A DNA stretch of 64,000 bases from Burkholderiales bacterium. Lineage in GTDB: Bacteria > Pseudomonadota > Gammaproteobacteria > Burkholderiales > Usitatibacteraceae. Shown here piece after piece: positions 44,382-51,090 of the stretch; positions within the stretch are counted from its first letter, which is position 1, and each line of letters begins with the position of its first letter. Location of the stretch: assembly GCA_025359985.1 (NCBI GenBank), contig JANYDB010000018.1, positions 1 to 64,000 of the forward strand, in the 5' to 3' direction. The notes below the pieces were generated by a model that saw only the letters and a list, made by a program, of their open reading frames with translations, searched no databases and was not told where the DNA came from. The translations under genes and the position numbers were made by a program.

Positions 44382-44954
44382 TCAGAACAGTTTTGCAATC
44401 ATCTGCGCTACTTTGCCACCCAACTCATGCAGCATTTTGCCGGCGCGTTCATCTTTGATGGTGTCATCGGTGTGCATCAAATCACCCGCATGCGGCACCG
44501 CCACAATGGGCAATACCAGTGCCCCCAGATTCGACAAAATATAAGACACATGCGGCAACGCGCGGATCGTGCCAAACGCACCATTGGATGCTCCCATCAA
44601 GCCGCAAATTTTGTTGGCATACGGCGCATTGCCGCTCGCACCATCCACCGATTGTGAAAGCCAATCAATAGTGTTTTTAAGCAGCGGGGTAATTGAAGCG
44701 TTGTATTCCGGGCTCGCAATCAGCAGCCCATTGGCCGCCATCATCAGCTTACGCAATGCCAACATGCCTCCAGGCAGGCCGTGTTCTTGATGCCAGTCGG
44801 CGTCGTAAATGGGCATGGCAAATTCGCGCAGGTCGGCCACCGTGACCTCAGCCCCCGCTTCACGCGCACCTATCACCGCGATAGCGAGTGCCTTGCGGTT
44901 CATCGAGCCATGACGATTGCTGCCGGCGAAGGCGAGGATTTTGGCTTGGGTCAT
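44382..44954 (-). CDS. NADPH-dependent FMN reductase
   Basis: A 190-residue flavodoxin-fold enzyme with ILAFAGSNRHGSMNRKA near the start, a flavin phosphate-binding loop, and PEYNASITPLLKNTIDWLSQ near residue 85. These are hallmarks of the FMN-red family that reduces FMN, quinones or chromate-like acceptors with NADPH. Cytoplasmic; physiological substrate unknown. It stands alone on the minus strand, about 170 bases upstream of the dps gene, with no gene overlap. Confidence 0.9.
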   Translation of the reverse strand: MTQAKILAFAGSNRHGSMNRKALAIAVIGAREAGAEVTVADLREFAMPIYDADWHQEHGLPGGMLALRKLMMAANGLLIASPEYNASITPLLKNTIDWLSQSVDGASGNAPYANKICGLMGASNGAFGTIRALPHVSYILSNLGALVLPIVAVPHAGDLMHTDDTIKDERAGKMLHELGGKVAQMIAKLF

Positions 44955-45224
44955 GGTGTAAATTCAGTGAGGTTAGACGGAGTTTAGTTTGGATAGCAGC
45001 TGAATAAATGCTGCATTCCGCGCAAGCATAAATGCATTTTTATGGTTAATCGAATTAGCCGCTTATTTACCGCCACTAAAGCTTAACCGACCCGGGCCTG
45101 TAAAGCCAACCAGAATTAGCGCAGCGCTTACGAGCTGAATTTTCAGAACGTGTTCGACAGTGTTATCAGGATAATTTATATTGGGTGACTGCTACCAATT
45201 GCTTTCAAAACAGGAAAACTTTAT

Positions 45225-46037
45225 ATGAAAAGATTATTTCTGGATTCACCAACGGGACAACTTCATGTGCGTGAATCCGGTCGCGGTGGCACACCATTGG
45301 TTATGTTGCACGCAGCCCCTGGTAGTGCCTTAATGCTCTCTGCGTTACAGGAAAAATTTATGCAGCGTACCTGGGCCATTGACCTGCCTGGAATGGGGGA
45401 TTCAGCGCCGCTGCCGTCGTGCGCTCATGAGCCCACTATTGCTGACTACACCCATACTATTGCTGCTGCCCTTGAGGGCGCCCGTATCGGTGAGTTTGAT
45501 TTATACGGCACGCTTTCCGGTGTGCGTGTAGCACTTGAGCTTGCCATGCGAAACAGCATAGTTGTGCGCCGTGTCGTGCTCGATGGCATTGGCATTCCAA
45601 AGCCGCAACAGTTAGCCGAATTGCTGGAGCACTACGCACCTGTATTCGCACCCGATATTAACGGCAATCATTTACTCAACACTTTTCAGCTCTGCCGCGA
45701 TCAATATTTGTTTTATCCCTGGTATGCACGTGATACCGAGCATCGCCGCCCGAACGGCCTACCAACAGCCGAAGCTCTGCATCTCAAAACAATGGAAAGT
45801 CTCAAGTCTGCAGCCGCGTTTCGACCTTTAATCCGTGCGGCATTTCGCTATGATGTGGTGGGGAAACTAAAGTCTTTAACCCAACCTGCCTTGATGAGCG
45901 CCGATGGCGCAGCCATTCTGGCTGACCTGCGGCCTGACGTTGAAGTGCTGGAATTTCCACCAGCCGAGCCGCTAACCTGTTCATCGGATTTGTTGGAAAA
46001 ACGGGCAGCGCGCATCGCAAAATTTTTAGCCGTGTAA
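45225..46037 (+). CDS. Alpha/beta hydrolase
   Basis: The 270-residue protein has the alpha/beta hydrolase layout, with MLHAAPGSALMLSAL as the oxyanion region and DLPGMGDSAPLP after it. The position of the nucleophile elbow reads DLYGTLSGVRVALELA, so a classical GxSxG is not evident. The catalytic residue may be shifted or lost, as in some non-esterase members. No signal peptide. A bidirectional terminator separates it from the convergent TonB-receptor gene; the two might act on one compound, but that is only inference. Confidence 0.72.
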   Translation: MKRLFLDSPTGQLHVRESGRGGTPLVMLHAAPGSALMLSALQEKFMQRTWAIDLPGMGDSAPLPSCAHEPTIADYTHTIAAALEGARIGEFDLYGTLSGVRVALELAMRNSIVVRRVVLDGIGIPKPQQLAELLEHYAPVFAPDINGNHLLNTFQLCRDQYLFYPWYARDTEHRRPNGLPTAEALHLKTMESLKSAAAFRPLIRAAFRYDVVGKLKSLTQPALMSADGAAILADLRPDVEVLEFPPAEPLTCSSDLLEKRAARIAKFLAV

Positions 46038-46180: not shown

Positions 46181-48553
46181 CTATTTAAAATAATAAATAC
46201 CTTTGAGACTAATCCGCTTCGGTTCAGGCAAGTAATTTAAACCCGCCAATTGTGCAGTCACCCAGGTTTTATCACCACAGTTAGAACAATCCAGCGTAAT
46301 TCGCCATTCATCCTTGCCGTTCAGCAGCGCAATTGATGCGTTAATGACCGTATGCCCACCCGCAAAAATAGCGTTATTGGTAGAAGCCGCCATTTTGCTA
46401 GTGTAAGCCGCGTTAACGGTGGTTGCCAGACGCCAGCTGTACATGTCCAGTGGCATCGTATAGGTCGCCCCTGGGTTGATGGTCTTTTTAGGCACACGCG
46501 AGGGGATTGAGATATTGCCAGACGACGTGATGATGCCCTGGTTACAGTTGGTACGCTGTGAGATTACAGCAAGGCTAATTATTTGATTACGGCACAGGGT
46601 CTGTTGTGTGATGACTTCTCGCGCAACATTTTCATATTTGGCGTCCTGAAATCCTAGATTGAGATAAGTGGTCAATCCTTTCATGGGCGATGCTGAAATT
46701 TCAATTTCAGCACCGCGATTTTTCAGGTCAGCAAAGTTTTTTTGCAGAAACACAACTTGCCCCGTGGCCAAGGTAACGCCCGAAACAGTTTGCAGATTAC
46801 TGACATTCATCAGAAAAAAAGTAGAATTAAAACGAACGGTGTTATTGAACAAACCCGCTCTCCAGCCTGCTTCATAGGACCAAACTGTTTCCGGGAAAAA
46901 CGGCTGCATTTGCAGCGGCGATGTGGCACGCGATGACCAGCCACCCGCCTTATAGCCTCGTGTCGCAGAGCCAAACAACATTAAATTCGGGTCTGCTTGG
47001 TAGGCCAATGCGAGCCGTGGCGTGGTATATCGCGTATTTTGTGAAAGCGGGTTACCGGCTCCGGCGATATTGGCATCTGTCAGGCGCAATGCTGGATTGG
47101 GGGTGGCGGCAAGAGAGCGGTTATCCGTAAAATGAATGGTTTTGTCATCTGTCGTGCTTCTCACCCCAAGCGTTGCGGTTAGTTGATCAGTCAGCTTGTA
47201 ATCACCTTGCACATAAACAGCTTTAGATTTAGTGTCGTTTTGCATGGTTCGGTCGCCCAAAACTAAAGGGAAACCGGGCCCCGGAATATTTGCGAGTGTG
47301 CTCAAAAACAAGTCTGCAAAATCAGTGGTGTTTTCTTCGTTCATGTAAAAGGCGCCAGCGACGTATGTCAACTTTCCACCCATGGCATCACCGGATAATT
47401 TTACTTCCTGGGTAAATTGTTTGTTACGCGCGTCGTTAGTGATAACAAAGCCACCAATTGCGATGGGATTCTGCAAAAAATCGATGCCAAATTTTTGTTT
47501 GAGGTCGCGCCAACCGGAGATGAAATCGATCGACACAGCGCCTAACGTTAATCCAACATTGGACGTCACAGATGTACTGGTAGTGCGATTGCCTAAACCA
47601 TAACTATTCTTTTCACCCGTTGTGCGAGGCACACCAGCAGCGGTGAAAAAACCGCTAAAATCAGTACGGTAGCCTGTGGTTGTTACGCGCTGGCCGTTGA
47701 CCAATGAATTATAAACATTGATACCTTCGTCTTTGATTTGATCGATCGACAAATCCCAGGACAGATTGCTTGATACATTCCACAGAAACGCGCCGCGTAC
47801 GCCAGTACTTCTAGCCGCATTTAACTTCTCGCCTGTGGTGACATTATTGACATAGCCATTATCTTCGCTGTGAAAGTATGAAAATTTGGTTTTGAAATTT
47901 TCAGCCATCGGCACATCCACAGACCCCCGCGAAGATACCTGCGAAAAACTGCCAATGCCTCCCTCCAAATAGCCAGCGAGCTTATCGCCTGGCTTTTTCA
48001 GGATGACATTTATCGCACCACCGGTTGTATTGCGACCAAATAGCGTACCTTGCGGTCCACGCAACACCTCAATGCGTTCGAGATCAAAGAAGCCAAAGTT
48101 ATTGGCGTTTTGGCGGCTGACATACACATCATTTACATAAGTACCGACGGGCGGATCAAAAGTCGCGATTGATTCTGTGTTACCCAAACCGCGTATAAAA
48201 TAGACGTTTGCGGTGCCCAAACCCGTATTGTTTTGTCCCACCATGTTGGGAATAAAATCGGCGAGCGCACGGGTACTAGTAATGCCTTTGGTGACAAGAT
48301 CATTGGCGGTAAATGTACTAACGGGCAATGGTACCGACTGCAGCTCTTGTTCGCGTCGTTGTGCGGTAACAGTAATACTTTCAAGTTTGCCTTCCTCGAT
48401 TTTCTTTTCATCGGCCTTAGCCGGTGTAGCCGGAGAATTTTGCGCCACAGCAAAAGTGGCGGCAAACGGGGCAATCGAGCCGACAACCATGGCGACGGCC
48501 AGATAGGTTGTGTGTAATCTCAATGCGGATTTTGTGCAGCTTGTTTTTTTCAT
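46181..48553 (-). CDS. TonB-dependent outer-membrane receptor
   Basis: A protein of about 790 residues with a signal peptide ending near TFAVAQ, a TonB-box-like ESITVTAQRR, a plug domain with FIRGLGNTESIATFDPPVGT and ERIEVLRGPQGTLFGRNTTG, and a 22-stranded barrel ending in IYYFK. Such receptors import siderophores, vitamins or large nutrients across the outer membrane using the TonB system. The track start 48646 is replaced by ATG 48553, which has GGAG upstream and gives MKKTSCTKSALRL. A strong promoter with tandem operators lies about 180 bases upstream. Substrate not predictable; the plug resembles receptors for aromatic or lipophilic compounds rather than known siderophore types. Confidence 0.9.
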   Translation of the reverse strand: MKKTSCTKSALRLHTTYLAVAMVVGSIAPFAATFAVAQNSPATPAKADEKKIEEGKLESITVTAQRREQELQSVPLPVSTFTANDLVTKGITSTRALADFIPNMVGQNNTGLGTANVYFIRGLGNTESIATFDPPVGTYVNDVYVSRQNANNFGFFDLERIEVLRGPQGTLFGRNTTGGAINVILKKPGDKLAGYLEGGIGSFSQVSSRGSVDVPMAENFKTKFSYFHSEDNGYVNNVTTGEKLNAARSTGVRGAFLWNVSSNLSWDLSIDQIKDEGINVYNSLVNGQRVTTTGYRTDFSGFFTAAGVPRTTGEKNSYGLGNRTTSTSVTSNVGLTLGAVSIDFISGWRDLKQKFGIDFLQNPIAIGGFVITNDARNKQFTQEVKLSGDAMGGKLTYVAGAFYMNEENTTDFADLFLSTLANIPGPGFPLVLGDRTMQNDTKSKAVYVQGDYKLTDQLTATLGVRSTTDDKTIHFTDNRSLAATPNPALRLTDANIAGAGNPLSQNTRYTTPRLALAYQADPNLMLFGSATRGYKAGGWSSRATSPLQMQPFFPETVWSYEAGWRAGLFNNTVRFNSTFFLMNVSNLQTVSGVTLATGQVVFLQKNFADLKNRGAEIEISASPMKGLTTYLNLGFQDAKYENVAREVITQQTLCRNQIISLAVISQRTNCNQGIITSSGNISIPSRVPKKTINPGATYTMPLDMYSWRLATTVNAAYTSKMAASTNNAIFAGGHTVINASIALLNGKDEWRITLDCSNCGDKTWVTAQLAGLNYLPEPKRISLKGIYYFK

Positions 48554-48702: not shown

Positions 48703-48761
48703 ATTTGTCCGTACAAATATTTGTCCGGACAAATTTATTACTTTTTATAATGTGTTGTCAA
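48703..48761 (-). promoter_or_regulatory. TonB-receptor promoter with two tandem 16-bp operators
   Basis: On the minus strand a perfect -35 TTGACA (48761-48756) and ATAAAT as -10 (48738-48733), 17 bases apart, point at the receptor gene. Overlapping the -10 and start site is ATTTGTCCGGACAAAT (48719-48734), a perfect 16-base palindrome, directly abutted by ATTTGTCCGTACAAAT (48703-48718), one symmetric mismatch from perfect. Such palindromes fit a dimeric repressor, for example of the TetR type. No regulator gene is adjacent. Confidence 0.7.
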
Positions 48762-49070: not shown

Positions 49071-50298
49071 CTAACCACCACGCCGGCGAAACGCAATCGC
49101 GCCTGAAATTGCGTTGTTCAGGTTGCACATGACACCCGCACCCGCGCCAGTACGGCCGGTGAAAAATCCGTCACGGCTTCCAGTGGGATTATTTGGCGTA
49201 CAGCTCGGCGTGCAGCTCAGCAGCAACTGTGCAGGGCGCGGCAACCTGGGGAAGTTGGGTAAAATTGATCTCAAAAATACTACTGGTCAAGATGCCAAGC
49301 GTTCCGAACTGATTGGTGGACGTGGTCGCGGATGCGCGGGTATGGGACACCGTTCCGGTTAATACGTCTGATAAATACGCCGGATAGTCCAAGCCGCCAT
49401 ATGCGAAATGCACACTGGCCGCTGGTTGAAATGCGAAGCCTAATAAATAAAGCTAGATGGATTAACCCAACGGCCAATGGTAACTTGCGAGCTGGCTTGA
49501 GAAGCGCCACCGAGGTTAATCGTTTGCACTTCAACGGCCGTGCCACCTTCAATCGCCAACGACTGTGCGGTTTGAATACCCCGATCAGATTGGTAGTTGC
49601 GCAAGGCCGCACTTTACAGCGTCATATCGGCGGGCAGCGCCTGACTGGGGTATATGCTGCCTGCAATTGAGACTGCAACATCGCGCACGCCCGAAGGATC
49701 AAACGGTGATACCAGCGTATTACCCAAATCAGGCGGCGAAAATACCGGACTGGTGACGCCATTAGCGGCATTACAGGATGCAGCCACCATCACCGGCAAG
49801 GCCGGCTCAATCACCTTAAAGGCGCCTTCGCGATTCGCCCGACCACTACCCGGGTTGCCCGTCATTTTGGCGGAGGCCGAAAGTATGGAAGGCGGCGGCA
49901 GGATCAATACAGGTGTCAGGCCACGCTGCACTTTGACGGTCTGATCCGGCAATGTAGTCAGGCTCGGACCATCGAAGCCGATAATGCACACCACATGGCT
50001 GCCTTGAATGGTGTAATTCAGCGGGGTCGGAACGCCCTTTTCATTTCCATACTCGTTCTTGTTTTCAGCTTCATCGGAATGCTGCAAAATATTACCTGAG
50101 CCGCGTATGCCCGGCATTCGCCCGTGGACGCGAATTGGTGCTCGACATCACCAGCTCGTCAGCCGCACAATCAACCATGCTGTTACTCACCGCCAGCCGG
50201 ATAGCATAGTTGCTCAACACATCCGAAATAAACGTCGTGGTGGAAACAGTGGGGCTGGAGAGAACCGCTTTACTCACCGCAGGGCGACTGAACAGCAC
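49071..50298 (-). pseudogene. Decayed gene, secreted-protein-like, several frameshifts and stops
   Basis: A chain of minus-strand fragments in changing frames looks like one dead gene. The order is 50298-50092 (VSTTTFISDVLSNYAIRLAV), then 50117-49614 (a 167-residue Pro/Ser/Thr-rich stretch with VPTPLNYTIQGSHVVCIIGF). A TAA at 49614 is followed in the same frame by RNYQSDRGIQTAQSLAIEGG, and then come fragments to 49071, including NPTGSRDGFFTGRTGAG. The composition, small residues and Cys pairs suggest an exported or surface protein. I do not recognise the family. The intact parts lack a convincing start. The frame breaks (near 50110, 49614, 49440 and 49240) are too many for sequencing error alone. 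Confidence 0.5.
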
Positions 50299-50499: not shown

Positions 50500-51090
50500 T
50501 TACTGCTTGATAGCTTCTACCTGAATTAGCAGACGGACGTTATCTGGAATGCCCGGCAAACCGTAGCTGACGTCATATTGGCTTCGGGCAATAGTGGTTT
50601 CAAAATCACCGCCACACACCTCGCGCTTAAGATATGGACTCTGATAGCAACCATAGGAACTAGCCTTGAGCACGACAGGATTGGTTTTGCCGCGGAGCGT
50701 TAATGTGCCGGTAATCGAGGCAACCTTATCGCCGTCAAAAGTGAAGGTGGAGCCAATAAATTTCGCTTCAGGAAATTTTGCGGCGCTAAAAAAATCGTCG
50801 CTACTGAGATGCTTGTCAAATTGCGCAACGCCAGTACTCATGGAGGTCATATCAATGGTGAGCTCGGCTTTGCCTGTCTTGGCGACTTTGTCGAGGGTAA
50901 TCATGCCGGATTTTTTGTCAAAGCGGCCATGGCTGGTGGACGTACCAAAATGCTTCACTTCCCAGGTTACAAAAGTGTGGGTGGGGTCAACCGCGTAGGT
51001 GGCGCTTTCAGCCGAGGCCGTGGTACTGAATGCAATGGCAACGGCAACGGCAAAGCTCGCTAAAAGGAATTTAAGTAAAAAATATTTCAT
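50500..51090 (-). CDS. YceI-family periplasmic protein
   Basis: A 196-residue exported protein with a signal peptide ending near ASAES and the YceI beta-barrel: TYAVDPTHTFVTWEVKHFGT, GRFDKKSGMITLDKVAKTG and TLTLRGKTNPVVLKASSYG. YceI proteins bind isoprenoid lipids in a lipocalin-like barrel. This copy has a Cys pair (CYQSPYLKREVC) likely forming a disulfide. It is the third gene of a cytochrome b561-YceI-YceI group on the minus strand. Confidence 0.9.
   Translation of the reverse strand: MKYFLLKFLLASFAVAVAIAFSTTASAESATYAVDPTHTFVTWEVKHFGTSTSHGRFDKKSGMITLDKVAKTGKAELTIDMTSMSTGVAQFDKHLSSDDFFSAAKFPEAKFIGSTFTFDGDKVASITGTLTLRGKTNPVVLKASSYGCYQSPYLKREVCGGDFETTIARSQYDVSYGLPGIPDNVRLLIQVEAIKQ

Follow-up and report, generated by a model that had tools for sequence, protein, structure and literature searches.

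A pair of abutting palindromes at a TonB-receptor promoter

The window analyzed here is the full stretch of 64,000 nucleotides, and all coordinates without a contig name are positions within it. It includes an alpha/beta hydrolase gene and a convergent TonB-dependent receptor gene, with two 16-bp palindromes at the predicted promoter of the receptor gene. The relevant features are as follows.

44382-44954: FMN reductase gene, neighbor of the module
45161-45176: TGTTATCAGGATAATT, a version of the operator with 3 mismatches, upstream of the hydrolase gene
45225-46037, plus strand: alpha/beta hydrolase gene, convergent with the receptor gene
46181-48553, minus strand: TonB-dependent receptor gene, presumed to be regulated (790 aa, ATG start, Plug and beta-barrel domains)
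48703-48718: distal candidate operator ATTTGTCCGTACAAAT, downstream of and close to the predicted start
48719-48734: proximal candidate operator ATTTGTCCGGACAAAT, overlapping the -10 element and the predicted transcription start
48732-48737, minus strand: -10 element TAAATT, from the promoter scan and alignment with relatives
48756-48761, minus strand: -35 element TTGACA, from the promoter scan, in the same place in 5 relatives
50500-51090: YceI gene, neighbor of the module

The first-pass annotation described two abutting 16-bp palindromes, one perfect and one nearly so, and both 16-mers were located with a gap of zero between them; ATTTGTCCGGACAAAT is perfectly symmetric and ATTTGTCCGTACAAAT is off at one base. 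Allowing up to 3 mismatches, the window contains 3 matches as opposed to 0.36 expected, and none of 100 shuffled sequences reached 3. The single match besides the operator pair, at 3 mismatches, is TGTTATCAGGATAATT, which is possibly a decayed or weak operator and may also be of chance origin. The notion that the palindromes themselves are a chance occurrence without regulatory function has nothing in its favor beyond the general abundance of palindromes; it is contradicted by the shuffle test and by the co-occurrence and conserved promoter architecture described below, and can be given practically no weight.

The -35 and -10 elements are separated by an 18-bp spacer and match the consensus at 10 of 12 positions, and the -10 element shares 3 bp with the proximal operator. 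Because chance alone gives the promoter scan about one hit of this kind per region, the call leans mainly on conservation in the relatives. The annotation had placed the palindromes over the -10 and start region of a promoter with a consensus TTGACA; the overlap with the -10 element and the consensus -35 element stand, and both are conserved in relatives, while the start region under the operators is a predicted one. The leader from the predicted start to the receptor ATG is about 170 nt, and no RNA element was found in this long leader or its flank. A distance of 16 bp, about 1.5 helical turns, separates the centers of the palindromes, so that two bound dimers would lie on opposite faces of the DNA. 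It is plausible that both palindromes are occupied at once in this way; the cooperative binding named in the first-pass annotation is at most a conjecture, and what relatives conserve is the architecture of the pair.

Further copies of the site and a candidate regulator

Sites were sought by pattern search in the genome from which the window comes (G000; 3.43 Mb in 129 contigs). The exact 12-mer core, TTGTCCGGACAA, has three copies genome-wide, namely the one in the window and two on contig C46 (C46:26500 and C46:32305). With up to one mismatch there are 12 places, versus 3 for a reversed control pattern, and 7 of the 12 are at the receptor promoter or in a large cluster of catabolic genes on C46. 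The other five are scattered, four of them inside ORFs and the fifth, on contig C126, with no called ORF of at least 80 aa over it within 3 kb. Those four are the only scattered 12-mers inside ORFs genome-wide at this mismatch limit, so the motif is not widespread in coding sequence, a possibility that the first-pass annotation had raised against its own reading.

The C46 sites have the following neighbors. One, with one mismatch (C46:9712), is between a GntR-type gene and a divergent MmgE/PrpD gene; a pair with one mismatch each (C46:45165 and 45197, 32 bp apart) lies upstream of a second TonB receptor. Further C46 sites separate a DUF1838 gene from an alpha/beta-hydrolase fusion gene and precede an operon containing a short-chain dehydrogenase. 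The GntR-type gene is the candidate regulator:

G000:C46:8963-9691, minus strand: GntR/UTRA regulator gene, 242 aa, divergent from MmgE/PrpD

Its product has an N-terminal GntR winged helix (PF00392, E=5e-22, residues 9-71) and a C-terminal UTRA domain (PF07702, E=3.5e-14, residues 95-229), and by sequence it is assigned to the HutC subfamily of the GntR family. None of the named NCBIfam equivalog models (HutC, PhnF, TreR) reached its curated cut-off; the best score was with the PhnF model (106.5 bits versus a cut-off of 156.8), and HutC gave 103.3 versus 220. The first structural matches of the predicted fold (pLDDT 74) were PhnF, YvoA and DasR, generic UTRA matches to a model of moderate confidence that do not point to an effector. 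The operator at C46:9712 is 21 bp from the GntR start, and the genes of the orthologues in G003, G006, G007, G008 and G009 have one or two sites upstream. Three other GntR-like genes in G000, 28-29% identical to the C46 regulator, were counted against the assignment. In the contigs of a wider collection, only two relatives of the regulator were found, at 25-26% identity and both in Bacteroidota, and a literature search for the operator sequence returned no relevant paper naming it.

At the GntR/MmgE divergon, the operator (L018:9710-9725) spans what is likely the ATG of MmgE/PrpD, whose protein starts MSGQ, and the same arrangement is seen in G006, G008 and G009. Translation may begin farther downstream; if not, the operator belongs to the start of the coding sequence.

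Two expectations of the first-pass annotation were borne out by these searches. No regulator gene adjoins the operators in the window, and the regulator would act in trans from elsewhere in the genome: the C46 gene carries the same site beside itself, and its presence tracks the sites across genomes. Its proposal that the regulator is of the TetR type fared less well. TetR proteins also bind palindromes of such size, some of them as paired dimers on opposite faces, both of which would suit a TetR-type repressor acting in trans. None of the 12 places with up to one mismatch is in the promoter of a TetR gene, and in G000 not one copy is beside a TetR gene, while copies do adjoin the GntR/UTRA gene. 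A TetR-type repressor is thus largely refuted and very improbable; the copies point instead to a GntR/HutC (UTRA) protein.

Co-occurrence of regulator and sites across genomes

The central evidence for the predicted pairing of regulator and operator is their co-occurrence across the genus. A total of 120 genomes was surveyed, 13 of the genus (the source genome included) and 107 more distant, with E<=1e-40 as the threshold for an orthologue. Of the 12 same-genus relatives, 5 have an orthologue of the regulator, at 53-55% identity; no orthologue was found among the 107 distant genomes. The six carriers, G000 included, have 3, 8, 5, 10, 8 and 10 exact sites, as compared to 0, 0, 1, 0, 0, 0 and 0 in the seven same-genus non-carriers (exact Mann-Whitney p=0.0006, which is only a guide because the genomes are related). 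The other 107 genomes contain 16 exact sites in total, about the chance rate. Incomplete assemblies (73-88%) represent some of the relatives, and absence of a regulator or site carries less weight there than in the complete ones.

Operator and promoter architecture in relatives

Conservation of the 41 exact sites in relatives continues into the flanks beyond the 12-mer, with A at -2 in 80/82 and A at -3 in 70/82, giving a consensus of 16-18 bp that reads A-A-(T/G)-TTGTCCGGACAA-(A/C)-T-T. The core, a palindrome of the GT-N4-AC type (TTGT-CCGG-ACAA), stands in all 41 and in the window. The predicted regulon in the relatives also reaches past the cluster.

The same abutting arrangement, spaced at 16 bp, is found before a TonB receptor in the same cluster slot in G003, G007, G008 and G009, where the promoter takes the form TTGACA-N17/18-TA(A/G)ATT and runs into the first operator, just as in the window. 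The orthologous receptor promoter in G006 has a single operator, which argues that the pair is not essential, and single sites form the majority of the regulon. Both facts would suit a distal palindrome that belongs to some larger composite site, or one that is a functionless tandem duplication. Against this, the pair is found again in four relatives whose sequences differ, arguing that it is kept, and we consider either form of the idea rather unlikely. An exact-pattern search of contigs for the abutting double site in other genera gave zero matches.

A receptor-hydrolase module separate from the main cluster

Orthologues of the window receptor were found in G006 and G008; the one in G008 is a direct orthologue, 66-70% identical over two pieces split between contigs, and the receptor in the same cluster slot of G003, G007 and G009 is a distant relative (about 30%). 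The hydrolase has orthologues 67-68% identical in G003, G006, G008 and G009, with an operator directly upstream. That operator is perfect in the relatives, whereas the window retains at most the 3-mismatch remnant. The cluster order in relatives is formamidase and enoyl-CoA hydratase (minus), a site, hydrolase (plus) and convergent TonB receptor (minus), sites, and then DUF3598 and hydrolase fusion genes. The window module is exactly the convergent hydrolase-receptor pair of this order together with its operators.

The genes that flank the module in the window, FMN reductase and YceI, are neighbors in relatives (98 bp apart in G003, about 110 bp in G007 and G009), so it seems that the hydrolase-receptor pair moved out of the cluster or that the cluster split. 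Either order of events would account for the arrangement, and both readings are kept. Such a separation also explains why no regulator gene lies next door: the window holds a two-gene module detached from the main cluster. No convincing repeats marking the ends of a relocated module were found. Between the operators and YceI (49073-50117) are fragments of a FecR-like gene in several frames, a family name given by eye from the sequence. The gene is intact in G009:C15 and adjoins FMN reductase in G011, and the fragments are a decayed gene that borders the relocated module.

Proposed mechanism

The best account of these observations is that the palindromes are tandem operators of the C46 GntR/HutC regulator, which would repress the receptor promoter in trans; we assign this reading a probability of roughly 90%. 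Each palindrome would take up one regulator dimer, which would bind by its N-terminal winged helix and contact the G of GT-N4-AC with the conserved R45, and the bound protein would block polymerase at the -10/+1 region of the TonB-receptor promoter. Binding of a pathway metabolite to the UTRA domain would cause the regulator to let go, and the uptake receptor would then be made together with the cluster enzymes.

The sign of the regulation, repression and not activation, rests on operator position. The poor -10 element, TAAATT, is what one might expect if the GntR/HutC protein were an activator, or both activator and repressor, at this promoter. The operators are over -10/+1 and downstream of the -35 in the aligned promoters, however, which is the classical position for a repressor, and the -35 element is the consensus TTGACA. 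A role in activation is quite improbable.

The recognition logic of the proposed repressor-operator pair can be read against that of NagR, in which R48 contacts G-4 and R38 contacts G-5 (PMC4333415). R45 of the C46 regulator is invariant and aligns with NagR R48, and base -4 of the operator is G; where NagR has R38, the C46 regulator has I35 and its orthologues leucine, and base -5 is T. The predicted contacts thus fit the bases, with R45 matched to G-4 and the loss of R38 matched to T at -5.

Relation to known regulators

Operators of the HutC subfamily are mostly of the GT-N4-AC form (PMC4494728). Among its members, NagR/YvoA and DasR (GntR/HutC) share with the C46 regulator the same GntR winged helix and UTRA architecture, GT-N4-AC operators, sites scattered over the genome and repression released by a metabolite, both repression and release being predictions in the present case. 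The resemblance is limited in sequence (about 20% identity), in the half-site (TTGTCC here versus TGGTCT) and in the second arginine, where the loss of NagR R38 goes with a T in place of G at -5. It is also limited in function, since NagR/YvoA and DasR control use of N-acetylglucosamine, and the genes presumed to be regulated here form a catabolic cluster of the CoA-ester/amide type that includes TonB receptors.

A second relative in terms of recognition is AraR. The effector domain of AraR is of the sugar-binding LacI/GalR type; the C-terminal domain of the C46 regulator is UTRA and not LacI/GalR-type, which places it outside the AraR subfamily. Even so, the Bacillus subtilis AraR operator, with consensus At(T/A)tGTaCGTAcaa(A/T)T and ORA1 AATTGTTCGTACAAAT (PMC4218819), is nearly identical to the operator here. 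AraR keeps only the first of the two NagR arginines (PMC4333415), and its recognition helix has GVSRHTxR in common with the C46 regulator. The AraR regulon is likewise spread over several loci, with pairs of boxes at some promoters, but those pairs are in phase and loop the DNA, whereas the window pair abuts at 16 bp and is out of phase.

The main cluster also resembles the divergent autoregulated HutC-subfamily arrangements described by Suvorova et al. (PMC4494728), in which the regulator is likewise divergent from a structural operon with 1-2 sites between them. In G003, G007, G008 and G009 the paired divergon sites are 37-38 bp apart. Unlike such divergons, the receptor promoter in the window is a remote satellite.

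The regulon and its pathway

As a catabolic regulon of the HutC type the system is ordinary, its regulator being a new, undescribed member, and it leaves knowledge of bacterial repression unchanged. The regulon defined here is absent from the literature searched. Its description turns an orphan operator into a testable set of regulator, operator and targets, ties the receptor and hydrolase of the window to one specific catabolic cluster, and provides a clear natural case of operator and arginine matching between HutC-type and AraR-type recognition.

The cluster encodes hydantoinase-, formamidase- and amidase-like enzymes, a LeuCD-like hydratase, MmgE/PrpD, CoA-transferases and several TonB receptors. 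We would guess from this enzyme set that an amide- or imide-containing compound is degraded through CoA esters, a guess alongside which we list the ETF-ubiquinone oxidoreductase (ETF-QO) gene that follows a site in G003 and G007. The same enzymes prompt a further guess, a substrate of the bilin or cyclic-imide type. Tentatively, the regulator and its scattered sites might constitute an undescribed catabolic regulon for a nitrogen-containing natural product, in which the out-of-phase pair is reserved for the uptake receptor and the receptor module is still controlled after leaving the cluster.

CpeT-, DUF3598- and DUF1838-type proteins co-occur with the hydantoinase, formamidase and amidase genes (L018:18860-20000, L018:6773-7294, L019:5469-6392). 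In relatives, sites also stand before the gene of a cyclophilin-type isomerase that bears FG-GAP repeats and, in G003 and G007, before that of ETF-QO (G003 1870954 and 2396073; G007:C47 5062 and C126 31864; G009:C45 212064).
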